Below, piece by piece: positions 1 to 56,284 of a stretch of DNA of 64,000 bases; the stretch's first letter is position 1, and the number at the start of each line of letters is the position of its first letter. The position numbers and the translations under genes are program-made. The stretch comes from Microthyrium microscopicum (taxonomy: Eukaryota > Ascomycota > Dothideomycetes > Microthyriales > Microthyriaceae). Location of the stretch: NCBI GenBank assembly GCA_010405405.1, contig MU004230.1:1323744-1387743 (forward strand). Reading direction: 5' to 3'. The notes below the pieces were generated by a model, which was not told the DNA's origin, ran no database searches, and saw nothing but the letters and a program-made list of their open reading frames with translations.

Positions 1-3000
1 TAAGGCGGCTTAGGTAGGAAAGAAAAAAAAGGACGTAGTAGTATTAGTAGGCGAGGTAGGCATAGTAGTATTACTAGTAGAAACTAATTTGTTTTTATAT
101 TTCTTTACTAGTACTCTTTAGTCTTTCCTTTAGGTAGTTTTACTTTATATTGCTAATAATATTATTCTTAGGTCTTATCTTTATTTTAATTTGTAGTATA
201 ATAACGCTGCTAGGTAAAGCTTACTAAAAGAAGATAGGCCTAGCGTCTAGCTAGTTAAATAGAATAATATTAGTTTATAAATATAAAATAGCCTCTTACT
301 AATTATTTAAAGTGCTAGAGTACTTTAGCCTTAAGCCTTAGCCTTTATTAGGAATACTAACTAAGAATACTATATAAATAGTAATGCTATCCTTAAGAAG
401 TAGACTATACTAGGTTATGCTAGACTTATTAAAAATTAGCTACTTTTTATTATTAGATATAGTATTAATTTCTTTAATTCTTTAAAAGAAATTAATTATT
501 TATTATTTCTTTAAGACTTTAAGTAGAGAGGATTAAGCCTTTACGCTGCCTATATAGGCTTTAACTTATATAGAATTAAATAGTTAGGAAGGACTAACGC
601 CCTATTCTAAATAAGGGCTACGTAATTTAATAATATATCCTTATAAGGCTATATATATATTGCTAAATAATAAGTAACTAGCTTATTAAATTGTAATGCC
701 TTATCTTTATATTACTAAACTAAGCTCCTCTAAATCCTTAAGTAGTTTATTAACTTATAGATTAAACTTAAGTAAACGTTAGTAAGTATAGTAATTAATA
801 TAACTTAGTAAAAAGAAGTTATAAAGTAGGATATAAAAAACTAGCATATAATAATAAAAAAAGTGAATAATAAGCTTAAAGGTAAGTAATATATAATATT
901 TTTATAAACACGTTAGAAATAGAACTTAAATTAATAACTAAATTAATTAAAAGCTATACTAAACTAAGAATCTAAATACTAGGGAGTTATTAGTTAAGTG
1001 TTAATATAATTCTATAAAAAAATTAGTTATGTTTCTATTTAATAATATTAACTACTTACTAGGAAATGTAATAATAGTAGTTAAGCTCTAACTCTAATTC
1101 TAAAAAGACTTTTGTAGCCTATTAGTCTATAGAGGAGTTATAGTCTTGTTTAAGATAGATATAATATTAGTTAGTAGAAAATAACTTAAGGAGAGTTAAT
1201 AAAGTTGATTATTAGGCCATTAGGTACTTAAGGGTATAGATAGTAAGCTCTTTAATATTTAGACTATATCTTTTTAAGACTCTCTAATTAGGAGTAACTT
1301 TATTTTTTTTCTTATACGTAATATAGTTATTTATATCCTTATTATTAAATTTATAATAGCGTTTTAATAACCTCTTACTATTATACTTATAAAGAGGGTA
1401 GCCTTTATTAAAGTTAACCTTCTAAACTAATTACTTATTCTTTCCTTATTCTTTCTTAATCTTTACTCTATTTATCTTTTTTAAAGCTCTTAAAGATATA
1501 TTAATTTTTTTAGCGTTATTTAAAATATAAATAAGCTAGTAGTACTCTCTCTATTTAGTACTATCTATTTAAATAAAACTTACCTTAGCTTTGCTTATAC
1601 TTTTAAGAATTTTTCTTACTTGCTTATATAATCTTTATAGTTTACCTTAAAAGCGTATTAATAATATTAATATACCCTTACCTTTTAGAAGATTTAAGTC
1701 GCTAAACTTGACTAATAAGCCTATTATATTATTATTATAATCTATATATATCTTTATCTTCTTTACTTTTAAACGTGCCTTAAAAATATTTAACTTCTCT
1801 TTGCTATCTATATAGCGCTAAAGGTTCTTATAGAAGGGCTCTAGGTAAGATTCTTTAATTTAATATTATATTATATTAATTTATATCTAGTTGTTAGTAT
1901 TAAAGATTTAATTAAATCTATAACCTTTAGAGTAAATATTATTAAGATAATATATAGGACGAAATAAAGCTTATAATTTCCTAGCTACTTCTTAGTAAAC
2001 TAAGAGAGTAGCTAGGAATGTATAAGCTTTATTTATTTTAAGGACTTTTTAGCTAAATTCTTTTATATTAAAATATCTTATAAAATAGTAACTTTAACTA
2101 TAGAGTAAGATCTAGAGAAAGTTATACCTATATTAACTTATAATTTTAATTTATCCTTCGTCTTAGATAATATACTACTAAAAGGTATACTATACTAAAA
2201 AAGGATTAAATATAACTTATATATATTTCTTTTAGTATTTTTAAGTCTTTATCTTTTAATATTAGACCCTAACTACCTCCTAGGTAAACTAAGAGAATAA
2301 TTAGAGTCTAATATAGCTCTAGAGGAGCTAATACCTACCTAAATTAGGATTTTTATTAGTTTAATATTAAGTTAATATTCTTTTTAATAGTAGGAGGAAG
2401 TAGATAAATTCTTACCTATTAGTTATCTTATTGCTAATATATATTTCTTCTATGTAAAGTATTATCTTAATTAATAATATAGTAGGTAGAAATCTAGCAC
2501 TTTATTAGTATATATATAATAAAGTCCTTAATAAAGATATACTATTATATTAAATATAACTATCTTTCTAAAAAGAAGCACTACTAGCTATATTTTAATT
2601 AATACTTATAATATATATCTAAGTTTATAATTAGCTTTAACCTATTAATATAATACTATCTTTATAGATAGAAGACTTTCTAAAAAGATAAAAGAACTAA
2701 ATATATAATAAGCACTTAGAGTAGATAAAGTAGTATACTTACTTTGCTATTCTAAGCGTAGTAATAATAAGTAAAAGTAAATATATTAAAAAATAACTAC
2801 TAAAATAAATAGGGATACTAAAGGTAATCTTTACTATCTTGAAGTAAATTAGTAGATAATAGAGTAAATTTAGGACTTACTTAAAGCGTACGTTATGAGC
2901 TTAAATCTAGTAAAGGATAGCTTATAATATATTTTTTATATTTTTGTTTTTATTAGTTATAATATATAAAATATAAGCCTACTATTCTATACTCCTAGAT

Positions 3001-4341
3001 ATCTTAAATAAATCCTTAGTTTATTCTTAAAGCTGTTAATTGTTACTAGGTAATAAGGTAGATAAATACATAAGCTTTATAAGTTAAAAGTTTAACTGCT
3101 TAGATTTTATAATATTCCTTTATAAATAAACGTAATGATTAGTTAGTAACTACTATAGCTAGTAATATATTTTTAAATATTAGCTAACTTTAAGTTACTC
3201 TTTTACTGCTTAATTGTCTAGCATTTAGATATATACTATAGTTACTACTTTTATTTACTAGGGATTAGTACTTTTTAATTTAAGAAGAACGCTACTTAAA
3301 TAAAGATATTTAGAAGTAGTTAATTAGCTTACCTCTATATATTAATAAACTAATAATAATGTTTGTTAATATCTATTTACGTTATTTAGTATATATTAAT
3401 AGAAAGTATATCTTTACCTTTCTTATAATATACTACTAATTATATACTAAGTAATAAAGTTTCTCTATTTTTTTAGAGGCTTCTATATCTATATTCTTTT
3501 AATAATAATATTTACTACTTTAGATTAATAATATATACTAAGATTTCTATCTAAGGAAAAATTAGGTATATCTAAAGTGTAACTACTAGCTAATAAATAA
3601 TATAGTTAAATTATCTTAATAAGGCTACCTAAAGTCCTTACTTAATAAACTTAACCTTCCTAGAAAAGATATATACTTTATACTAAAATAAAGAGTGTGA
3701 CCTTTATTATACGTTAGGGCTAACGTATTAGATATATTTATTAATACTAGATTAAGGTAGGATTACTTTTTATAGATAAGAATACTCTTAGTAAAATTAA
3801 GAGCTTATAGTTTATATAGGTTAATAATCTTATAACCTATTTATACTATTTATATTATTCCTAATATAGTACTTATGCTTCCTAAGGATATAAGGTGCTA
3901 TATAGAATTATTTCTATATATAATAATAATAAGGCTATAATAATATTAGAAAGTCTTTATATAGCTTAGTTTAAATAAAAATTATAGTAGAAAATTATAG
4001 TAGTTAGCTTTGGTTTTTAGGCTTTACCTTCCTCTTAATTGCTAATTTATTAGTATTTAGTTTAGATAGTATTTAAATAGTATACTAGTTTTTAACTAAC
4101 TTTCCCTTATATTATAAAATATAAGCTTTTTTAATATATAAAATAACCTAATTATTATACTCTAAACTAGAGTATAACTACTATATAAGTATAATAGGTT
4201 ATATAGAACTATAGCCTTAGAAGAGTATTATTAGTAAAATAGGTAAAGGAAGAATAAGATTAGACTTAAAAGGTATACTAGAATTACTCTATTATAACTA
4301 GTAAGCCTATCTATAAGATAAAATTTCTAAATAAGAAGGTA

Positions 4342-4399
4342 ATTAGTTATTATTAATAAGCCTACTATAGATAGTAGTCTATAGTAGGCTATAACTAAT
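4342..4399. repeat. Imperfect hairpin in AT-rich block
   Basis: Two arms, AGCCTACTATAGA at 4359-4371 and its exact reverse complement at 4378-4390, are separated by a 6-nt loop. A second pair (ATTAGTTAT at 4342, ATAACTAAT at 4391) extends the stem past an 8-nt bulge on the left. It is probably part of a decayed element; no function is assigned. Confidence 0.6.
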
Positions 4400-6695
4400 A
4401 AAGGGTAGTAATATTATTTATATTCTATATATAGTATCTCTAGGTAGTAAGTAGTTATAGTATTTAGTATAATTAAAATACTAATTAATTAATAGTTAAA
4501 AACTACCTATATTACTATGAATTAACCTAGCATGATATAATATATTAATATAGAATGTATTAATATTAAAGATGTTAAGACTTTTTTTTAAAAGAAAAAA
4601 ATTAATATAAAAAATACCTTACTATTTTAATCTTCTCTAGAAAGTATATTAGAGAAGGGTAACTAATGAAGTATAATAAGATATCTTTAATAATAAATAC
4701 TAAAGTATAAATAGTTATAAAAATTATTATAATATCGTTGCCCTAAAAGGGTCTTAATATTAATTAAGATCTACTAAGATACTCTTATAGTAATTTTACT
4801 AAGTATTAGTATAAATATACTACTTAATAAGCTTTATTATAGAAAGCTTTACTTGCCTAAGTAATACGTAGTATTAAATAATACTACTTAGTAATAGAAA
4901 GGCTTTATAGCTATCCTAGCTAGTTAATACCTATATATTTAGAAAACTAGACTAAGTTATAGAGATAGGTTAGATTAGTAATCTCTACTAGTTTTAGCTG
5001 CCTTAAAGCTAAGTAATTATTAAATAGTACTTTAAAAAGTAACTATAAGTTATTCTTTTTATTTTACTAAAATAAATATATATAATAAGTAAAATAATAT
5101 CTTAATTTCTTAATAATATCTTAATCCCTTATATAATAAGTAAAATAATATCTTAATTCCTTATATAAGGCATCTCTTTGCGAAGGGTAGATACTTTAAC
5201 GTATTCTAATAAGTTGTTTATAAAACGCGCGTTATAAGTAAAATACTAAGTATTTTATTATAAAGTATCTTACTATACGTATTCTCTTAAGTAGTCTCTA
5301 GAGAGGAATAGTATAGTAAGCTTTATAATTAATTTTATATACGTAGAAGTATATTATATTAGAGAGTATAGGATTAAGAGTAGAGAGAGCCTTTTAGCTA
5401 AGAAGGCTTACTCTATAGTAGTAGGACGTTATTCTTAAAGTAATACTTACTATTAAATTATTATAGTAAGATTGCGTAGGTATAAAACTACTATGTAGTA
5501 TAAGCTTAATATTATTATAGATTCTACGTAATTTTTAATATTACGTATTAGAATTTACTAAGATTTTACCTCTTTTTTTTTATAAAAGAGCTAAAAATCT
5601 ATTATTCTTTTACTTACTTAGCTCTTAATATAGCTATAGAGAAACTTAGTAAGACTTAGATATACGTACTACTTATTATATAAATTAGCTTAGCGCTACT
5701 TAGATATAATAGCTAGATTAGAGTTATAGTCTTCCTCTTACTTAATGCTAAAAAATCTTACTTTATTAAACCTTCTTTATTATAATTCTATTGCTTAATT
5801 ATATTAGTTATGCTTAATTTAATAAGGGAATATAAACTTATATATAATTTAGCCTTATAAGATTATTATATAGTAGTGCTAACTATCTTAGTACTAATCT
5901 TATGCTATTTCTTTACTTTTTTTATATTTTTATAAGTATAGTGTTCTATAATAGTAGGCTAGCCCCTTAGATATTTAAGTATAGATATATTTTATAAGAT
6001 AATTAGTATTTATAAGGAATATTTACGCCTTTAGCATTAGTAGTTCTACTAATTAGTAAGCTAAATAGTATATATAATGGTTTAGTATATAAGCTAAGAA
6101 ATATAGGCTTGCTAAAACGTAACTTTACTTTATATAATATAAATAGAGAAGTCTAAAATACTTTATATTAACGTCTTAAAGCTTGCGTAATTATATTAAA
6201 AGCTAGAAATTACTTTTAAGGATATAAATTAGTAGTAGAAGAGCATTAGAAGACGTTATAGCTAAAAGGATAGAAGTTTTTAGCGACTTAGACTTACTAA
6301 AAGTTAGTAAAGTAGTTATAAGTAAAAAGGATAACGCGCTAGAATAATATTATTTAGTAAAGGATTATACCCTTTTCGCTATTAAGATATAACGCCTAAT
6401 CTAAAGAGACAATATATAAAGGAATAACTTAAGAACCTATAAAAGAGATAATACCCTAAAAGAGATATTATAGCTAAGGCTTACCTATAAGCTAATTTAG
6501 TAAGGAACTACTATTACTAAGCTTTATTAAACTTTACTATAGTTGTAAATCTATAACTTTGCTTTTATTCTTTTAAGAGAGGAGCCCTATAGTGCTAGCT
6601 CTAATTAAAACCCTTATGCAAAGTTATTTTATTTATTAAAGCTATTTTAAGGAAGATATTATAAGTATAGTTTTCTTAAAGAATATTCTCTTACT

Positions 6696-23140: not shown

Positions 23141-24941
23141 ATGTCCATGATCACAGCGACCGGCTGGGTCCCTCGAGGCTTCGCCGCCGCTTTCCCCACC
23201 AAATACGTCTTTGACGACGACGAGTATGGCCGAATCGCCAAGCTCGCAAAGTTACAACTCGAAGACGCCGAAGAAGACCTTGAAGAAGCAAAAGAGGCGG
23301 CTGAAGATATCAATGGAGAATCTTCTGAGCATGATGGCAATGGCGCGACGGGAGAAGTAAATGGAGAGTCGTCCAAGTCAAATGGAAATGGCGCGAAAGC
23401 CTCTTCCAAAAAGTCCAAGGACAAGGAGTTAGTCCCGCTGACGTATAGAGAGAGCGCGTAGAGCGTAGCTAATAGGATCTAGGGAAGCCGATGACGATCT
23501 GAAAGAGTACGATCTCGAACACTACGACGATGATGGAGACGAAGAGAATGGCCCCGGAACATCAATGGACATGTTTGGAAACTTCAAGTCCCTGGCCTAC
23601 CACGAATCAAATGAAGAGGATCCTTATATTACCTTGGATGCTGACGAAGAGGATGACGAAGAGCGCGAGGAACTACAGATATTTCCGACAGACAATATGC
23701 TTCTAGCCGCGCGTATAGAAGACGATATCGCACATCTCGAGGTTTATGTCTATGAAGATGATGCAGACAATCTATATGTCCACCACGACATCATGCTTCC
23801 TGCATACCCACTCTGCGTAGAATGGCTGAATTCGGCGGCCGGAAAAGGAGCAGCAGAGCGTTCAAAGGAAGCAAAAGAAGCCAACTTCGTCGCCATTGGT
23901 ACCATGAATCCTGATATTGAAATTTGGGATTTGGACATGATAGATTGCATGTATCCCAATGCCATTCTAGGCCAGGGAGGCGATCCAAGTGCCGGTGATG
24001 GAGAACCCAAGAAGAAAAAGAAGAAAAAGAAGAGCAGAAAGCCCAACGACAAATACCATGTAGATGCCGTACTGTCACTCGCTGGCAACAAGCAACACAA
24101 GAATCTCCTAGCATCTTCATCGGCAGATATGACCGTCAAGCTCTGGGATCTACACTCCACTACATCACACTGCGCTAAATCTTACGAGCTCCACCAGGAC
24201 AAGGTGTGCTCAATAGCGTGGAATCAATATGAGTCTACAGTGCTCCTGACTGGTAGCTACGATCGCACTGCAACCGTGTCAGATATGCGAGCGCCTGGCA
24301 CAAAGGTTCCTCGATGGACAGTTGAGAGTGATGTCGAGACTGTCAAATGGGACCCTCACAATGCCGCGAATTTCTATGTAAGCTGACTCGACTGATAAGT
24401 ATAAGCACTCGCTGACGTTTTTTAGGTATCGACAGAAAGTGGTATCATACATTGCTTCGATGTTCGCCAGACACCATCAGAAGGCCAAAGCAAGGCTTTA
24501 TGGACTCTCCAAGCTCATGATGAAAGCATCTCTTCCTTCGATGTCAATCCTATCATTCCTGGATATCTAGTCACGGGCTCAACAGACAAATCAGTCAAGC
24601 TCTGGAACGTTGTTGACAATCGGCCGAGCATGGTCGTTTCCCGCAATCTAGATGTAGGAAAAGTGTTCTCTACTACTTGGGCGCCAGACAAAGAAGTAGG
24701 CTTCCGACTAGCTGTGGCTGGCAGCAAAGGTTCTGTTCAGATATGGGATACCTCCACCAATGCTGCCGTGCGACGAATCTTTGCCGATCGTGTTGCTCCC
24801 GCCGACGGGGAGGAGGTCAAGGAACGACTTATTGGAGTTGAAGAAAGCGAGGACGATTCAGACGAGGATGAGGAGGAAGACGAAGATGATGCCGAAGGCG
24901 GAGAAGACGAGGACGACGATGATGATGAGATGGAAGAATAG
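23141..24941 (+). CDS. PWP1: Periodic tryptophan WD40 protein Pwp1
   Basis: Three exons (23141-23427, 23483-24377, 24426-24941) give about 565 residues. The N-terminus MITATGWVPRGFAAAFPTKY matches the Pwp1 start (I.A..WVPRG....P.KY..DD.E), followed by acidic low-complexity segments. WD repeats are marked by VKLWDL, VKLWNV and VQIWDT. The tail is an extreme Asp/Glu run. A Lys-rich tract KKKKKKKK sits near 24010. Pwp1 is a nucleolar factor for 60S subunit assembly. Introns are 55 and 48 bp, the first with a GCTAAT branch site. ATG 23141 or 23147 could be the start. Confidence 0.92.
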
Positions 24942-25436
24942 GCGACAAGTCGTAGATACTATGCGCCCAAGTCATCAACAACTAAACGACTCTCTCCCGT
25001 CACCTACAATATGTCCCATTGCACTCTTTAACGCAAAAATACTATAATGCCGACCGTATTCTATCCTAGGTCGAGAGTTCTGTGCGCGCACTAAAGCATG
25101 GTGTACTTTGTATAAAGCCCAGAAGTTGATAGACATAATACGGGAGCTTGTAACATATTTTCTGGACCTGCTGGCACCTTGTTGGCAAAGTTGGGCAGGT
25201 ACTCCGCAGACAGATACGATGTCTACAAAGCAGTCGTGCTTTAATCAGAAGGAAGCTGCACGCCTGCCTACGCTTTGATATAAACACAACTTGACCAGGA
25301 AAACCTCTAGTTCTCTCAATCACATCGACCTCTTCAGCTACTCGGTCTGCCACTATAGCGACGCCTCATTTCATTCGTACTATCTTGAAAGAGACCACCA
25401 TTACTACTTCCAGTCACTCACACATCATTTCTAGCA
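24942..25436. other. Intergenic, PWP1 to BTB gene
   Basis: No convincing gene is seen on either strand. It should hold the PWP1 3' end and the BTB gene promoter. Confidence 0.5.
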
Positions 25437-26845
25437 ATGGTAGACACTCATTTCGCCAGGTAAGTGTCCAAGCCGCGTTATCACGAGTTCCCACTGATAT
25501 ATTATCAGGATTATCACATCCGGCGCTTTCACCTTCGTGGTCGGCAAGAACAAACGACCTATATCATTCCATCCGCTTGCTTTTTCGAGGCATTCTCCAG
25601 TAATGGCCGCAATGATCGATGACAACGTGAGCCAAGAGAACTATTTCGCAAATATTCAAGACATAGAGGAAGACGATTTCTTCCGCTTTTGCCAGTGGGC
25701 TTACACTGGCAACTATACGGCACCGAAATCAGAACCGATCGGCACGCTTTCCAACCATTTCGTCCGTGGCGGTGCCAATGCTTCCGTCAACGACAAGAAA
25801 TCCCAGGGCCCAAAGATGTATGCCTGCAAATTCCCACGTTGCACATATTCCAGCAAGCGCGAGTCCAACAGCAAGGTGAGCTTCCCCATGTCTAATCACA
25901 TTTCTTCACGACATCGGATGATACAAAAAACCGTTGCCGTTCTCGTGATACTCAATGGGTACCATAAGACTCGTCCCTAATCCAATGCTATGGATGTCAA
26001 CGAATGCGATGGATGTTTTACAATATCTCCTTCAAAAGACCGTCTGGTCTTCAAAGCGTGTTTGCTCTGTTCGTGATCGTATACTGACTAAATGCAGCAA
26101 CACATGGAAAAGGTACACAACTGGACCGCCGATGAAATCAATCCACCAAAAGTTCCTGGTCGCTACTTGTCGTCATTCTTCGAAGCTAGAGGCGAGCCTG
26201 GCAAGCATGCAAAGAGACTTTGGTCCAAAGCCTGCCGAGACAACCGAGACGCCCCGGCCAAGCGCACCACAATCATTGTTGAGGATGATGGTTAGAATCC
26301 TCCTCACAAGATCGACGCCGAAACAGGTGAGACCGTAGGCGACAGCGAGAACGAAGACATTGAGAAAGAAGTTCCTCACGAAAGGCCCATTTCTCCACAG
26401 CCTGAGACAGAGCCTCTATTCGATGAAGATGAGCCTATCGATCTCGATAGCGCCAAAAATGACTTCACGGCGGTATTTCTTTGTCATGCGCGCCTGTTCC
26501 GATTTGCAAAGAAGTACCAGATCAAGTCATTTCAGAAAACGATTCTAAACAAAACACGCGAAGCTTTACGTGTCGTCGAACTTAACCCGCAACGTAACAA
26601 GGACTTCAATGCCCTTCTCACTGCCGTGTTTTCACGGGAGTACGCGAGGAAGATTGAACTTGGTAAGTCTATGGGTCTGCTATCTCTTGTGATCCATCAA
26701 GTGTGTCTGATCATCATGGAGTGTCTGGTACTCAGTGTCGATCACAGCATCAGATAGCAGTTCTTGCAGTCCGTCGCATTGTCACCAGGATTTACTAACA
26801 GAAGTAGACGACCTGAGAACCATGCTCTTGCTTTCGAATCTCTGA
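25437..26845 (+). CDS. BTB protein with an internal C2H2 zinc finger; in-frame TAG
   Basis: Exons 25437-25459, 25509-25875, 26098-26662 and about 26802-26845. The first part is the N-terminal half of a fungal BTB/POZ fold (FHPLAFSRHSPVMAAM, then FFRFCQWAYTGNY). Joining exons 2 and 3 creates a C2H2 finger, C-x4-C-x12-H-x4-H, with the RESNSKQHMEKVH signature of fungal zinc-finger proteins. The rest of exon 3 returns to BTB-type helices (VFLCHARLFRFAKKYQIKSF). A TAG at 26293-26295 interrupts the frame between finger and second BTB half. A 36-nt GT...AG segment (26291-26326) spans it and its removal keeps the frame, though that is very short for an intron. The gene is either an unusually spliced chimera or a recent nonsense allele. 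Role: probably a transcription or adaptor factor (inference). Confidence 0.6.
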
Positions 26846-39144: not shown

Positions 39145-39730
39145 GATGGGAGAGATAAGCTCGAGAACGAGGTAGCAGGCGCGCCCTATTGGCAAAGGCG
39201 CGCGTTGGAATGCGACAGGAGTATAAGATCGCGGGGAACAATAGAGACTGGATAGAGGGGATGCGTAGGCGCTTTCTACGTTCGAAAGATACGATGTCTG
39301 TGTGGTGCGGATGGATAGAGCTAGGGTGGATGCGCGCTCAGTCGTTGAGTTGGTTGGTTTGGACGAGGTTTATGGGGAGGACTGAGAGTGAGCTGGAGCT
39401 TTGAAAGTCAAATGTTGAATGCGCTGTGCAGATGTGAAAGGCAGGCATGCGCGACGGGGGTGAAAGCTCACAAGCTAGTCCATATTGCCACTAGCGTCGA
39501 ATTCGAGGTTCAGGTTGTGCGAGGTACTGATTTCTGATTGAGGTGAGAGCACTTGCCAATCCCGCCAGGTGCATCGAACATCCTCATGTTTAATTCCGTT
39601 GCACTTATCATTGCCTCAGGACGTATAGATACGAGCTGTTTGATCCAGAGATTGAGATTAGGTACTCAATTGGAGAAATGGATATAGATACTACCCTACC
39701 AATCAACGAACTGACAAAACAATCTACAAC
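39145..39730. promoter_or_regulatory. RPB7 upstream region
   Basis: No supported gene lies between the RPB7 start and the first foldback element. It should contain the RPB7 promoter. Short open frames lack motifs. Confidence 0.45.
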
Positions 39731-39890
39731 TTCCTATCAACGTTGATGGCTTCCACCAACGCTACTAACCAAAACATGCTGTGTGTCTCATCGTATTCGA
39801 CAATCCTCCAGAAAACAAACGCCCTCTGTGGGAAAGAAGCACTCGATAACACAGCGTGGTTGATGGTTGACGTCGCAGTCGATGGGAACA
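39731..39890. repeat. Solo foldback element, diverged
   Basis: The left arm TTCCTATCAACGTTGATGG and the right arm ending GCAGTCGATGGGAAC are imperfect inverted repeats. The interior GCACTCGATAACACAGCGTGG closely matches GCACTCGATGATATAGCGTGG in ADE12 intron 6, so this belongs to the same family. It is more diverged than the intron copies. Confidence 0.65.
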
Positions 39891-40058
39891 TGCCATTCAT
39901 TTCCCATTCAGTTGGTGAATCAAAGCAGAAGCATGGATATGCATGAGAGCCTGAGCAGCAAAAATGAGTTGATAGTTCATCAACTACCTACAGTACTTGC
40001 CATCGCATCTGTTACATAGCGAATGTTCTGATTCTCATCGTTTCCGATGATTTGTCCA

Positions 40059-41215
40059 GTTTTCAACCCGCTCGATGACGGGATAAGACTCGTCAACAAA
40101 GCGTGACAGATGGCTCCCATCAAAGCTGATGGGAGCATGACAATTAAGCAAATTCTGAATACACGATGGGAAGCATCGTACATGGTAACAAAGCGTAGCA
40201 CTTGGTCCCCATCGAAGCTGATGGGAGCACGACTAATTTGGCTGTCGTTCGGTTTGCCGTATGCATATTTGGGTCCAGTTTTTCAACGCACTCGATCGGC
40301 GAGATAGAACTCGATAACAGAGCGAATCAGGTGGCTCCCATCGCATCTGATGGGGGTACGACTAGTTTGGCCGGTTTAGTAAGGAGGCGATTCGTCCAGT
40401 TTCCCAACGCACTCGATGGGCGAGATAGAACTCGATAAAAGAGCGAATCAGGTGGCTCCCATCGCATCTGATGGGAGTACGACCAGTTTGGACGGTTTAG
40501 TAAGTAAGCGATTTGTCCACTTTCCCAGCGCACTCGATGGGAGACAGCGTACTCGTTCATTAACGTAGCAGCTGGCTCCCATCGAAGCTAATGGGAGTAC
40601 AGCTGTTTTGGCCGNNNNNNNNNNNNNNNNNNNNNNNNNNNNNNNNNNNNNNNNNNNNNNNNNNNNNNNNNNNNNNNNNNNNNNNNNNNNNNNNNNNNNN
40701 NNNNNNNNNNNNNNNNNNNNNNNNNNNNNNNNNNNNNNNNNNNNNNNNNNNNNNNNNNNNNNNNNNNNNNNNNNNNNNNNNNNNNNNNNCACTCGATGGG
40801 AGACAGCGTACTCGATCATTAACGTAGCAGCTGGCTCCCATCGACGCTGATGGGAATACGCGAGTTATTCTGTCCTTTGGTCTGTAATTTGGCGATTTCC
40901 CCAGCGCACTCGATGGGAGACAGCGTACTCAGTAAAAAGCGTAGCAGCTGGCTCCCATCGAGTGCGCTGGGAATACACGAGTTTACTGTTTTATTTGATA
41001 TGCAATTAGTCCATTTTCCCAGCGCACTCGATGGGAGACAGCGTACTCAGTAATAAATCGTAGCAGCTGGCTCCCATCAGCGTCGATGGGAATACGCGAG
41101 TTATTCTGTCTTTTGATCTGCAATTTGTCCATTGTCCCAGCGCACTCGATGGGAGACAGCGTACTCGGTAATAAAGCGTAGCAGCTGGCTCCCATCAGAG
41201 CTGATGGGAAAAACG
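40059..41215. repeat. Tandem array of foldback units, about 118-bp period
   Basis: At least nine units are visible, marked by CTCCCATC arms at about 40114, 40206, 40335, 40456, 40576, 40835, 40952, 41071 and 41189. Spacing is 92 and 129 in the ragged left part, then about 120, then 117-119 bp. Each unit has a left arm like CCCAGCGCACTCGATGGGAG, a loop containing GCGTAGCAGCTGG and a right arm like CTCCCATCGANGCTGATGGG, followed by about 46 bp of spacer. Right-hand units are nearly identical and left-hand ones more diverged, so growth probably occurred at the right end. The array lies in the ATP1 upstream region and contains an assembly gap. Confidence 0.9.
40615..40789. other. Assembly gap (175 N) inside the tandem array
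   Basis: A run of N interrupts the array. The flanking arms are 259 bp apart, a little more than two 118-bp units, so the true number of units is unknown. Confidence 0.99.
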
Positions 41216-41476
41216 CCGAATTTTTGTGCTTTGGTTGACATATAAAATCGGGAAGATTATATCCAACCATCGGGGAAAAGTCGGGTGATTACGGTAGGCT
41301 TGGCATGGCTTGGCACCGAGGAAAGAGCATCCAGTGCTCTGAAGGTTTTACTCTTCATCTCATCAAGCTCTATCCGCAACCTACCTCATCCATCTCCTCT
41401 CCAATACCTCTTTATCCGTCTCAATTGCCTGCAGGGCCACTCAGTAGAGCTTCTGTAGACACTTTGAACGGTCATC

Positions 41477-43735
41477 ATGTTCCGGACCGCCCTCAGACAA
41501 ACTGCCCGGGTGGCAGCTTCCTCAGGAAGCAGAATCGCCATTGTAAGTCTCAATCAAGCTCAATTGCGATTCTCAATAGCTCTACATGTGGAAATGCGCA
41601 AAATATGGACACGTTACACCATCGATTGAGCATTTTTACGTGTGCAGAGCTCTTGCGTGGACGTGGTCAACGTTTTTTTCTCCAAAGCATAGCTCGCTAA
41701 CAAAACTTTGATATAGAACCGATCTACCCCAGCCGCTCTCAATGCCATCCGCAACTACGCCTCCGAGTCCAAGGCCACGCCTACTGAGGTGTCCTCTATC
41801 CTCGAACAACGAATTCGCGGTGTTCAGGAGGAATCCGGTCTCGCCGAGACTGGTCGAGTTCTCTCCGTCGGGTACGATTCGGCTGTTCGAAATCGCAATA
41901 AAGGTTCTCAATACTGATGCTTAAATAGTGATGGTATCGCTCGTGTTCATGGTATGAGCAATGTCCAGGCCGAAGAACTTGTCGAGTACGTTTTGAGCAA
42001 TTTTTGGATCACAACTTGGACATGGATTGACCAATATCTAGGTTCGCATCCGGTGTCAAGGGCATGTGCATGAACTTGGAAGCTGGCCAAGTCGGTGTCG
42101 TGCTTTTCGGTTCTGATCGTCTTGTCAAGGAAGGCGAGACTGTCAAGCGTACTGGAGAAATTGTACGTCGAAATCCTTGTCCTCCTTTGTCTAGATACTA
42201 ACATATCTAGGTCGATGTACCAGTTGGCCCAGAACTTCTAGGTCGTGTCGTCGATGCTCTCGGTAACCCCATTGATGGTAAGGGACCCATCAAGACCAAG
42301 GAAAAGCGTCGTGCTCAACTCAAGGCTCCCGGTATCCTTCCCCGTCATTCCGTCAATCAACCTGTGCAAACTGGTCTCAAGTCCGTCGATGCCATGGTTC
42401 CAATTGGCCGTGGTCAACGTGAACTTATCATCGGTGATCGTCAAACCGGAAAGACCGCTGTCGCCCTGGATGCCATGCTAAACCAAAAGCGTTGGAACGA
42501 GGGTTCCGACGAGGTCAAGAAGCTCTACTGCATCTACGTCGCCGTTGGTCAAAAGCGATCCACTGTTGCTCAGCTCGTCAAGACTCTTGAGGAGAACGAT
42601 GCTCTCAAGTACAGCATCGTTGTTGCCGCTACTGCCTCTGAAGCCGCTCCTCTACAGTACATTGCTCCTTTCACTGGTACATCTATGGTAAGATTTCCGC
42701 GTCTTTACCCCTTCAACGCATTTCGATGAACTTCTATCGACTGCAATGTTTGCCATCAGTCTTCTTAAATAGTGACTGCGCTATTTCCCATCGCATTTGA
42801 TACTCTTGCCAGTATTTAGTGCAATCGATGGGAATCAAAGCAGTTACCATTTAAGAAGTCTTATGGAAGCCATCGTAGTTGATGGGGCACATCACCCAAT
42901 TAGCTCGCCTATTTTGACACCGCCTTGTATGAATGATCCTTTGCTAATCAAAAAATTTAAGGGGGAGTGGTTCCGCGACAATGGAAAACACGCCCTTATC
43001 ATCTACGACGATTTGTCCAAGCAGGCCGTCGCTTACCGTCAAATGTCTCTCTTGCTTCGTCGCCCTCCTGGACGTGAGGCCTACCCCGGTGATGTCTTCT
43101 ACCTACATTCCCGTCTTCTAGAACGATCTGCCAAGATGAACGACACACACGGTGGTGGATCTCTCACTGCTCTCCCAATCATCGAAACCCAAGGTGGTGA
43201 TGTGTCTGCTTATATCCCCACAAACGTCATTTCCATCACTGATGGTCAGATTTTCTTGGAAGCCGATCTCTTCTACAAGGGTATCCGACCTGCCATCAAC
43301 GTCGGTCTCTCTGTGTCCCGTGTCGGTTCTGCTGCCCAGCTCAAGGCCATGAAGCAAGTCGCTGGTTCATTGAAGCTCTTCTTGGCCCAATATCGTGAAG
43401 TCGCTGCTTTCGCTCAGTTCGGTTCCGATTTGGATGCTTCCACCAAGCAAACTCTTAGCCGTGGTGAACGTCTTACCGAACTCCTCAAGCAAAAGCAATA
43501 TTCACCAATGGCTGTCAACGAGATGGTTCCTCTTATCTTTGCTGGTGTCAACGGTTACCTCGATAGCGTGCCTGTCGCCAAGGTTGGCCAATGGGAGGCT
43601 GACTTCGTCGCTCATCTCAAGTCAAGCGAGTCGGAAGTTCTCTCACAAATCGAAAAGGAGGGTGCTTTGAGCAAAGAGTTGGAAGGCAAACTCAAGGACA
43701 TTGTACAGTCATTCACCAAGAGCTTCGTGGGTTAG
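41477..43735 (+). CDS. ATP1: Mitochondrial ATP synthase subunit alpha
   Basis: Six exons (41477-41542, 41717-41871, 41939-41985, 42042-42162, 42211-42687, 42962-43735). The start [20 protein letters not shown] is an Arg-rich mitochondrial presequence. Conserved F1-alpha features follow in order: [27 protein letters not shown], the P-loop [32 protein letters not shown], the signature [17 protein letters not shown], and a tail ending TKSFVG. The protein forms the F1 hexamer with beta and carries the noncatalytic nucleotide site. Four introns are 48-174 bp and intron 5 is 274 bp because it carries a foldback element. Its acceptor is TTTAAG rather than CAG. Confidence 0.97.
42753..42866. repeat. 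Foldback element inside ATP1 intron 5
   Basis: The left arm starting CCATCAGTCTTCTTAAATAG (42753) and the right arm ending ATTTAAGAAGTCTTATGG (42866) are inverted repeats over about 40 bp, with few mismatches. The inner parts contain TTCCCATCG and CGATGGGAA, the core of the family. The element is about 114 bp and lies wholly inside the 42688-42961 intron. A weaker outer pair (CCCCTTCAAC at 42708 and GTTGATGGGG at 42878) hints at a nested second copy. Confidence 0.85.
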
Positions 43736-44072
43736 AAAGTGTGATAGTGAAGTGTACGTAGGTCCGGCGAATATTGAAATCGGTCTTGTTTCAGTGCTGA
43801 TTGTCAATGTAGATGTATAATACAGGTAGATCTCCGTGGCAAAACGTGTGTTTGAGAGCAGTGATGGTGAGAAAAAGGGGATTCAGCGTGTTTTCTTTTA
43901 CCAGCGGCTTCTTCTGAGGCAGAGTGATATCCCGCTTTTCCTTTTCGGGTGCTACACTTTGTCTGGATCTCTAGACAGGCTCTGCTCTTGGGGCATAAAA
44001 CTCAGCTTTGTACTTAGTTGAATTGCAGTTCTTTTGTTGATACATTTTGCAACCTCTGCTTCCAACATATGC
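43736..44072. other. ATP1 3' region
   Basis: Presumed 3' UTR and terminator of ATP1. No gene is seen. Confidence 0.45.
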
Positions 44073-44240
44073 GTGCTCCCATCTACTTTACTAATTGTCA
44101 TGAGCTTCTTGAACGAGAAGTTGCTTTCTTTGCCATCGAATCTCTGGCTTCAATGGGTCAACGAGTGATCTAGTGCAATGGTAGATTGAGCGCAATCTCT
44201 TCATGAAAGTGGGTGGCAGCCATCTTAGTTTATGGGAGCT
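44073..44240. repeat. Solo foldback element between ATP1 and SDR genes
   Basis: It opens GTGCTCCCATC (44074) and closes TTTATGGGAGC (about 44238), with interior GCAATGGTAGATTGAGCGCAA and GGCAGCCATCTTAG, resembling the right half of other family members. The arms match well only at their tips. It lies in the short promoter of the SDR gene. Confidence 0.6.
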
Positions 44241-44480
44241 AGCTATTTACTTTGTTCATTCCTCTAGCTTGGTTTCCAGTCAATGGGGCAAAGATATTTG
44301 AATTACGAGGTCGTGATACTTCAGAAAAAAGGTTGCAAAGCGAAATAACTGTCAAAACCGAGGTCTGTGCTCAATACTTCTTGACTTTGAAGACCTTCTT
44401 CAAGCTCAAGCCAACACTGATGCAACTACCATCTCTTATCTTCTCCTTCATCAAGATCAACATTCATTCTCCGCGACATC

Positions 44481-53600: not shown

Positions 53601-56284
53601 ATGGCAACAATAATTCTTGGATCGCAGTGGGGTGAGTGTTTCCCATGTCCACCAACGGATGGGCAAAATCAACAGCAAGCTTGTAGCAACTCTGATGTTT
53701 ATCAACGCACTTTATACCGAGAAAGCACTTTGTAAAGAGTTCAGTCGTTGGTAGACATCGGACTGGATGCAAGCTTGCCTACTCCATGGCGTGCCTTACT
53801 CTATGCGTGAAATCTGTGGAATTTTGCTAATGAGTTCTAGGAGATGAAGGTGTACGTTACAGATATGCTCTCAACGACTACGCCATCGACCATCAAGTGT
53901 GGTGTCAGAACCAGCATGTCTTCTTAAACAAGGGCAATGGACGATATCGTAGTCGATGAGAGAACGCCAAATTATCGTCGGATTCATGGTTGCTAATGCA
54001 CGTCATTTCTCTAGAAAGGTAAACTTACCGACATTCTCGCCAATGACACACAAGTTTGTGCTCGAGCTGCTGTAAGTTGCTGCATAAACATCTGAAACAT
54101 AGAGGGTATAATCATACTAAATCTAATCTTAGGGCGGTCACAATGCTGGTCAGTAAGTACTTTACAGCCTTGAAGGTTAAAGCATCAAGAGTAAAAGCGC
54201 AAATAATAACGTCCTAAAGCTCCATTGTAGCAAATGGTGTATCCTATAGGTTAGTGAGATTTAGAGAGCTTGAGGAGGGCAACAAAAACTGGCATGCTCC
54301 CATCGAATGATGGCTATCATCAACATTCAAAAGCACATCGAGGTGTGCGACTGGAAACGAAGCACTCGAAAAAGGGTTTAGTTCATGGCAGTCAGCGAAG
54401 TTGATGGGAGCACGCCAGTTTTTGAAAATAACTAAATATCTGTCGAGACTAACTGGTGTAGCTTTCACTTACTACCCTCCGGACTCATCAACCCAAAGTG
54501 CATGAACCTGATTGGATCTGGGGTCGTCTTTCATGTCCCAACATTCTTCTCCGAGCTTGCTGAGTTAGAAGCGAAAGGACTGGAAAATGTCCGGGATCGA
54601 ATCTTCGTCTCGGACCGTGTGCAAATTGATCTTGATCTCCATATTGCGGTTGACGGACTGGAAGAAATAGAGCTAGGTGAACGTAAGGTTGGAACGACAG
54701 GTCGCGGAATTGGTCCTTCTTATAGCACAAAGGCAGGCCGTAAGTTTGCCATCCCGTTGCGAATGAAACTTTATATTAACACAGGCTCTACAGGAAGCGG
54801 AATCCGACTGGCCGAGGTTTTCGATGCCGAAACGTTTGAGCGTAAGTTGCGACAACTAGCAACAGGATATTCAAAACGATATGGCGACCTCCTAAAGTAC
54901 GACGTGGAAGACGAATTGGCCAAATTCCAGAAGTATCGGGCCGAGCTTCCACATTTTACAGTCGACGCTATCGCTTTTATCAAATCCGTACAGGATAAGA
55001 ACTCGAAATTGCTTATCGAAGGCGCAAATGCTCTTATGCTTGACATCGACTATGGCACGTATCCCTATGTTACTTCATCAAACACTGGCCTCGGGGGTAT
55101 ATTCACAGGACTCGCCATCAATCCAACGAAGATCAAGCAAATAATAGGCGTCGTCAAGGCATACACCACAAGAGTCGGCGAGGGTCCTTTCGTGACGGAA
55201 GACACTGAGGAGTAAGTTCTGAGTCCTGGTACCCGTCATATTCGAATGGCTCTGGAATCAGGCTTCGGCGAGATAAATAGCACGCTCCCATCGACTTCGA
55301 CGGCCACCACTGCTGCTTTTGAGAAAAAGAGACTTTAGGTCCCATGGGGCTCGATGAATTGTCAAATATTGAAGGCGTTCTATGGCAGATAAGGCACTCG
55401 ATGATATAGCGTGGTGGATGGTAGCCATCAAAGTCGTTGGGAGCATCAAGGTTTTGCCATTTTGTTGAAAGCCGCCAAGGACATCGTCAGATGCGTTGAG
55501 TCAAGACTGAAGTAATGCTAACTTTGGTAGGGTCGGAACAAAGCTACAAGAAATTGGCCGCGAATGGGTAAGCAACAAGTGAAAATTTGAGTGATTTAAC
55601 GTTGACATGATTTCAGGGTGTGTCGACCGGAAGAAAACGAAGATGTGGTTGGTAAGTTTTTCCTTCTGATTGCTGTTAATTGGTTGTTTCCGGACTAATA
55701 TGTCGTAGGCTGGGTAAGTTGGCTTTGTGTACTGGACGTCAAAGGCAAATGATTTGACATTTATTCTAGACCTTGTTGTCGTTAAATACAGCACGGTATG
55801 CAGTCATTCTCTGATCAGAATACGACTTATCTTTACTCACAAAATCTAGGCAGTCAACCATTACACGGCATTGAACATCACCAAGCTTGATGTGCTAGAC
55901 ACGTTCTCTACCATCAAGATCGCTGTTGGCTACAATGACCCACAAACCGGAAAGGTTAGTAGTTCCAGCACACAATGCAGTCAGATCATTGAATTGACGA
56001 CTAATATCAGGAGATCCCCTCACTATTCCCTGCGGACCTCGGTTTGTTAGGCCGAGCGGAAGCAGTGTATCACGAAATGCCGGGTTGGAACGTGTCAACT
56101 GCTGGTGTGAAAGCATACGAAGACCTTCCTGAGCAAGCTCGAAACTACATTGAGGCATGTCTAGATCAAAACGAGTACTATAACCCTATGCTGACACTAA
56201 GAACAGTTCATCGAAAAGTTCATTGCAGTCCCAGTGAAATGGGTAGGAACTGGTCCCTCTCGAGATGACATGATTAGTAGGTAG
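53601..56284 (+). CDS. ADE12: Adenylosuccinate synthetase, 13 exons with microexons
   Basis: Exons: 53601-53631, 53841-53851, 54015-54071, 54133-54152, 54220-54249, 54462-55211, 55531-55567, 55617-55651, 55709-55713, 55770-55795, 55850-55954, 56011-56154, 56207-56284, totalling 1329 nt (442 residues, normal for the family). Landmarks: [17 protein letters not shown] (P-loop-like GDEGKGK split over three exons), AAGGHNAGH, then [52 protein letters not shown] and [14 protein letters not shown]. The enzyme joins IMP and aspartate with GTP in purine synthesis. Thirteen exons is unusually many for a fungal gene. Exon 2 is 11 nt and exon 9 is 5 nt; intron 12 has a GC donor. Introns 1, 2, 5 and 6 are enlarged by foldback elements. 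Confidence 0.93.
53642..53761. repeat. Foldback element in ADE12 intron 1
   Basis: CCCATGTCCACCAACGGATG (53642) and CAGTCGTTGGTAGACATCGG (53742-53761) are imperfect inverted repeats (about 16 of 20 positions). The element is about 120 bp inside a 209-bp intron. Confidence 0.7.
53867..53965. repeat. Foldback element in ADE12 intron 2
   Basis: The left arm GCTCTCAACGACTACGCC (53867) pairs with the right arm ATCGTAGTCGATGAGAGAAC (to 53965). This is the same arm consensus as in intron 6 (GCTCYCAWCGACTWCG). About 99 bp, inside a 163-bp intron next to the 11-nt exon. Confidence 0.75.
54284..54423. repeat. Foldback element in ADE12 intron 5, best-kept copy
   Basis: The outer 21 bp at each end are inverted repeats differing at one position (core AAAAACTGGC at 54284 and GCCAGTTTTT ending 54423). 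Inside lie GCTCCCATCGA and TTGATGGGAGC. Total 140 bp inside a 212-bp intron. No clear target-site duplication is visible by eye. The interior GCACTCGAA links it to the tandem array. Confidence 0.85.
55281..55447. repeat. Foldback element in ADE12 intron 6
   Basis: The left arm CACGCTCCCATCGACTTCG (55281) pairs with the right arm ending AAGTCGTTGGGAGCATC (55447). Arms match over about 24 bp with five mismatches. About 167 bp, inside a 319-bp intron, the longest of this gene. Its interior GGCACTCGATGATATAGCG closely matches the solo copy near 39840. Confidence 0.85.
55709..55713 (+). other. 5-nt microexon of ADE12
   Basis: GCTGG is flanked by AG (acceptor) and GTAAG (donor). It supplies the second half of Trp, a Leu and the first base of Asp in the conserved CGWLD motif. 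Without it the frame and the family motif break. Confidence 0.8.
56155..56206 (+). other. GC-AG intron of ADE12
   Basis: The 52-bp intron starts GCATGT, with a GCTGAC-type branch site and an ACAG acceptor. It is the only place where the conserved ...ARNYIE can join [14 protein letters not shown] in frame. Confidence 0.75.

Follow-up and report, generated by a model that had tools for sequence, protein, structure and literature searches.

Adenylosuccinate synthetase (ADE12) of the ascomycete Microthyrium microscopicum holds four long introns, and each contains a foldback. The locus raises the question of whether the repeat family behind these foldbacks creates introns or lengthens introns that were already there. 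The original prediction, made from the letters of this DNA, left both options open. We addressed the question within the window, a stretch of 64,000 nucleotides of contig MU004230.1, and in further segments of the same genome.

The structure of ADE12 was established by manual splicing, in which removal of 13 introns gave a product of 424 residues (Table 1). Pfam PF00709 (Adenylsucc_synt) matches residues 4–422 in one stretch, covering profile positions 1–416 of 416 (E 6.7e-168), and the top PDB homologue, 5i33, matches residues 3–421 (E 2.3e-147). Introns 1, 2, 5 and 7 are long, and the spliced translation confirmed the sizes predicted for them (209, 163, 212 and 319 bp). The predicted total of 12 introns fell short by one, the 54-bp intron 54740-54793 having been overlooked. 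The long introns previously numbered 1, 2, 5 and 6 are thus the same four, renumbered, and the supposed eight short introns are nine, within the predicted size range of 49–67 bp. The final intron, of 52 bp, is of the GC-AG type.

Table 1. Genes, introns and element copies; positions are those of the window.
Feature	Position	Strand	Evidence and remarks
ADE12 (adenylosuccinate synthetase)	53601..56284	+	13 introns; spliced translation, Pfam and PDB
ADE12 introns 1–4	53632-53840, 53852-54014, 54072-54132, 54153-54219
ADE12 introns 5–8	54250-54461, 54740-54793, 55212-55530, 55568-55616
ADE12 introns 9–13	55652-55708, 55714-55769, 55796-55849, 55955-56010, 56155-56206		last intron GC-AG
Element envelope, ADE12 intron 1	53652..53779	.	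old copy; ~53653-53803 by eye; HMM E 2.1e-4 on 53700-53779 and 0.03 on 53652-53706; foldback arms 53675-53707/53746-53778, 79% complementary
Element envelope, ADE12 intron 2	53884..53970	.	old copy; ~53862-53992 by eye; HMM E 1e-8
Shortened element copy, ADE12 intron 5	54284..54423	.	HMM (E 1.3e-11 on 54353-54423, 6.8e-5 on 54284-54321), foldback arms (22 nt, 95% complementary) and fold z
Nearly full-length copy, ADE12 intron 7	55266..55462	-	HMM E 2.2e-37
Element in ATP synthase alpha intron	42729..42900	-	HMM E 7.7e-26; intron 42688-42961, 274 bp
Nearly full-length intergenic copy	39713..39914	-	HMM E 1.5e-42
Intergenic stretch with tandem arrays matching the family profile	39998..41220	.	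HMM, Tandem Repeats Finder
Intergenic copy flanked by the ATP synthase alpha gene and the next predicted gene	44071..44256	+	HMM E 1.1e-18; intronic in lenient calls
Old intergenic copy	24980..25171	-	HMM E 8e-8; just downstream of a predicted gene ending at 24941
Eight introns with splice signals outside the element	ADE12 1, 2, 5, 7; ATP synthase alpha 42688-42961; L048 helicase (two); L070 (presumed SDHA)

A family profile (HMM) was built from 54 copies with those of ADE12 left out. The profile matched all four long ADE12 introns, with E values of 2.1e-4, 1e-8, 1.3e-11 and 2.2e-37 for introns 1, 2, 5 and 7, respectively, and gave zero matches to the nine short introns at E ≤ 10. On the real sequences it returned 237 matches at E ≤ 0.01, 286 at E ≤ 1 and 326 at E ≤ 10; the corresponding numbers for a reversed-sequence control were 0, 1 and 9. 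Across the whole genome (36.9 Mb), the arm core GCTCCCATCGA has 103 occurrences and its reversed pattern 14. RNA folding of introns 1 and 5 against shuffles gave z scores of -3.76 and -4.89, respectively. It is extremely unlikely, and we reject, that the long introns hold chance foldbacks or unrelated inverted repeats: the arms in intron 1 are visibly unlike the common core, but four introns match an independent profile that has 0 control matches at E ≤ 0.01, the reversed control gave nothing as strong as the intron 1 match, and the arm core far exceeds its genomic control. The match to an independent profile, together with the clean control, makes the intron 1 copy a family member. Both the presence of an inverted-repeat element in each long intron and the common arm core had been predicted correctly; the core had been noted in three of the four copies, and family membership extends to all four. 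This confirms that one element family supplies the foldbacks in the four long introns.

Most aligned full-length copies of the family terminate in CAACCGG...CCGGTTG or close variants, the ends of long terminal inverted repeats (TIRs). Genome-wide, the outer TIR was found 126 times with two mismatches allowed (1 in the control), and a 23-base arm pattern 376 times with three mismatches allowed (0 in the control). Ends were placed in 34 of 41 full-length copies, the other 7 being skipped, by a rule that does not draw on matches between flanks but was set after flanking duplications had already been viewed by eye. Element length has a mode of 213 bp and a range of 186–223 bp, with 24 of the 34 copies within 210–214 bp. 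Target-site duplications (TSDs) border 17 of the 34 copies (5 bp in 12, 6 bp in 5); 1 copy has a 3-bp duplication and 16 have none. Among mismatched pairs of left and right flanks, used as a control, a duplication of at least 5 bp arose in 3 of 1122. The ADE12 copies, whose ends are old and decayed, showed no clear TSDs by eye.

The family is abundant. A similarity search with one copy found at least 40 places, with 40 of 122 candidates scored, and 39 of these spanned at least 180 of the 225 query bases. Extrapolation from 15 incidental copies in 142,520 bp (20 segments; copies without an exact arm counted) gives a rough genome total of 3,900 recognisable copies, which may be too high because the segments were picked around copies. 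Searches for an autonomous partner, limited to Plavaka and hAT, gave no clear candidate linked to the family: Pfam Plavaka had no match in this genome, as in 14 control genomes, and the 17 hAT dimer matches all contain stops. Within the open-licence literature, the arm string occurs in 8 papers, of which one concerns a Fusarium PCR assay and none has a title pointing to repeats, and the terminus strings match in 1 paper, on a bacterium. The repeat is a dispersed non-autonomous DNA transposon family with TIRs and TSDs, that is, a miniature inverted-repeat transposable element (MITE).

An intron bias, examined by counting copies inside versus outside introns as proposed with the original prediction, did not emerge. 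A home-made predictor, for which long open frames served as the training set, called the genes in 82 segments, including the window; the ADE12 model was supplied manually. About 341 kb were searched and 334,614 bases counted, N and the first 6,500 bases of the window being left out; exons make up 127,659 of the counted bases (38%). The locus sample is non-random, most loci having been chosen for an exact arm match or for similarity to a copy. It contains 105 element clusters, of which 95 are intergenic, 9 intronic (including the doubtful L050) and 1 exonic. Per element-free kilobase, the intron to intergenic rate ratio was 1.16 (p 0.58). Under four predictor settings, three of which carry no penalty for introns of ≤ 400 bp, it was 1.04, 0.99, 0.91 and 1.20, in no case significant; the clusters labelled intronic numbered 8, 23, 23 and 57, respectively. 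The intronic share of copies is thus uncertain and the ratio stable. Checked against known intronic copies, the default predictor recovered 7 of 9, missing that of L061, and the lenient one 9 of 9 while calling many more introns. A coding-flank score proved too insensitive for short exons, placing 4 of 8 intronic copies within the range of the others.

Intron size and element presence go together in the sample. Elements occupy 0 of 115 introns up to 110 bp and 0 of 4 at 111–150 bp, and 8 of 14 above 150 bp. This tally covers 133 introns from genes scoring ≥ 25; the introns of weaker genes, the presumed SDHA gene being one of these, were dropped, and L050 is among the 8. Of the six long introns counted as element-less, one predicted intron of 222 bp (25876–26097) contains a sub-threshold family match at 25952–26022 (E 0.09).

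The splice signals were then located relative to the element. Donor, CTRAY-type branch motif and acceptor all lie outside the element envelope in eight of nine element-bearing introns (Table 1), with the branch motif beginning 14–38 nt upstream of the intron end in these eight. No branch motif was found in the ninth, that of L050; this putative intron, at residue 591 and beyond the last Pfam match, is itself doubtful. Pfam domain matches run through the positions of the element-bearing introns in ADE12 and ATP1 and of intron 6 in the helicase gene. For ATP synthase alpha, the gene is predicted at 41477–43735, and its intron falls at residue 292, within the ATP-synt_ab match (188–411). The L070 gene, which has a Pfam match to FAD_binding_2, we take to be SDHA; the donor of its intron was moved by eye to the GTAAGT following LFPTRSHT, a known motif. 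Removal of the envelope leaves 72–131 bp of intron in seven cases (SDHA and L050 left out), an overestimate because decayed ends fall outside the envelope.

Among the eight introns, the picture is least clear for ADE12 intron 2. Inspection by eye places the start of the arm ~10 nt from the donor; the junction GGTGTACGTTACAG bears a loose resemblance to the element end, and on its right side the element runs up against the branch motif. The element may have supplied the donor at this intron. A further element, at 702–915 of L061, lies within an intron of a minus-strand gene that we recognised by eye as presumably a concentrative nucleoside transporter. This intron is missed by the default calls, found by the lenient ones and stands outside the eight. 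Use of the element end as a donor in L061 was considered and rejected, as a minus-strand reading by eye shows other splice sites.

An introner-like element would generate new introns by insertion into exons, with splice sites drawn from the element or from a duplication. In every long ADE12 intron the envelope takes up at least roughly half of the length, and intron 2 begins close to an element end, both of which fit such an origin; genes holding several introner-like elements are also known, as a section title in one report states (PMC4457414). We nevertheless regard this origin as very unlikely and reject it on distribution, on TIRs and TSDs, and on splice-signal position. The sampled clusters are predominantly intergenic with no intron bias, and the splice signals sit outside the envelope in all introns but the doubtful one. 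The family has TIRs and TSDs, whereas ascomycete introner families are described with neither in the accessible part of the relevant report (PMC9860276). With the splice signals outside the element, the MITE appears to have lengthened existing introns. We put the probability at about 0.9 that the long introns of ADE12 reflect independent, mostly old MITE insertions into pre-existing introns. The earlier proposal that the family creates or expands introns thus finds support for expansion, in the position of the splice signals, and none for creation, given the lack of intron bias and the TIRs and TSDs.

The probable course of events is as follows. The four ADE12 elements would be separate insertions of a non-autonomous cut-and-paste DNA transposon family, mobilised by a transposase presumably encoded elsewhere. 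The family lies in non-coding DNA and, in the sample, does not favour introns over intergenic sequence; the near absence of exonic copies would most simply be due to removal by selection. An insert within an intron would be spliced out through the donor, branch site and acceptor of the host, and the intron would grow by as much as the insert, itself decaying, measures. The introns themselves would predate the insertions.

The accumulation of four copies in a single gene was also considered. At the incidental rate, 0.15 copies are expected in the 857 element-free intron bases of ADE12, and the probability of four or more is 2e-5, so that ~0.2 genes of this sort would be expected among an assumed 11,000 such genes. 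With the local rate of the window, which is rich in elements, the probability is 1e-3. Mutual alignment scores among the four ADE12 copies range from 9 to 25, and with scores this low the copies look like separate insertions. The clustering in ADE12 is a mild outlier without explanation.

A foldback of MITE origin could since have come under selection for bringing the donor and branch site of a long intron closer together. We consider this quite unlikely for the foldbacks studied here. All eight intronic copies in the folding test score below 130 bits, so there is no intronic copy among the youngest. Among copies below this score, the median fold z was -4.29 for the 8 intronic and -0.79 for 59 intergenic copies (p 0.0005), but the difference was not significant when all 97 copies were taken together (p 0.21). 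A regression controlling for score and length (42 copies) gave a borderline coefficient of -2.3 (SE 1.0), which became -2.3 (SE 1.2) without ADE12, and a linear residual test gave p 0.11. Matching changes in both arms were enriched approximately threefold in introns before exclusion of the arm core, most loci having been picked by an exact arm. Outside this selected core they stood at 0.258 in introns compared to 0.106 (p 0.004, permutation p 0.00015). With subfamily-variable columns also removed, the values were 0.048 and 0.044 (p 1, permutation p 0.47). Power is lower here, since only 2 both-arm changes in introns survive this filter. These tests were post hoc and rest on eight intronic copies. 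On the plainest reading the stem is simply the inverted repeat that belongs to the MITE itself, and selective retention of the foldback is possible but unproven. The wider idea that intronic MITE foldbacks are selected as a structural bridge, with which a short-intron spliceosome copes with introns several times the usual length, is likewise unlikely; were it true, intronic copies would decay yet hold their stem.

Other features of the family were seen alongside these copies. Tandem arrays at 40273–41210, built of 121-bp and 118-bp units, match the arms of the element, and the MITE may have been the seed of this satellite-like array. The 175 N of the window fall within the same tandem-array stretch. 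At C12:347261–347328 the exact arm core occurs four times at 19-bp spacing, perhaps another short tandem array derived from an element arm. Separately, positions 1–6000 of the window form an AT-rich block (GC 0.21–0.23) adjoining ordinary sequence of ~0.47 GC, which we take to be RIP-like.

This locus offers a worked case in which intron expansion by a DNA transposon is told apart from intron creation in a short-intron fungal genome, with one MITE family present in over half of the sampled introns longer than 150 bp. Several foldbacks within the introns of one gene are not necessarily introners; the decision comes from a count of the copies that lie outside introns, from TSDs and from where the splice signals sit. 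Like known MITEs, the element is short and non-coding, has TIRs and TSDs, shows hundreds of dispersed arm matches and includes intronic copies. It differs in a TSD of 5 or 6 bp and the terminus CAACCGG, and has no superfamily assignment. Intronic MITEs in carrot serve as intron-length polymorphisms, according to the accessible part of one report (PMC5422474). The ascomycete introners, as far as the accessible parts of their reports describe them (PMC9860276, PMC4457414), are alike in being repeats that form much of an intron, with several per gene. In contrast to these, the element described here sits within the intron and is not the intron itself, most of its sampled copies lie outside genes, and it carries both TIRs and TSDs.
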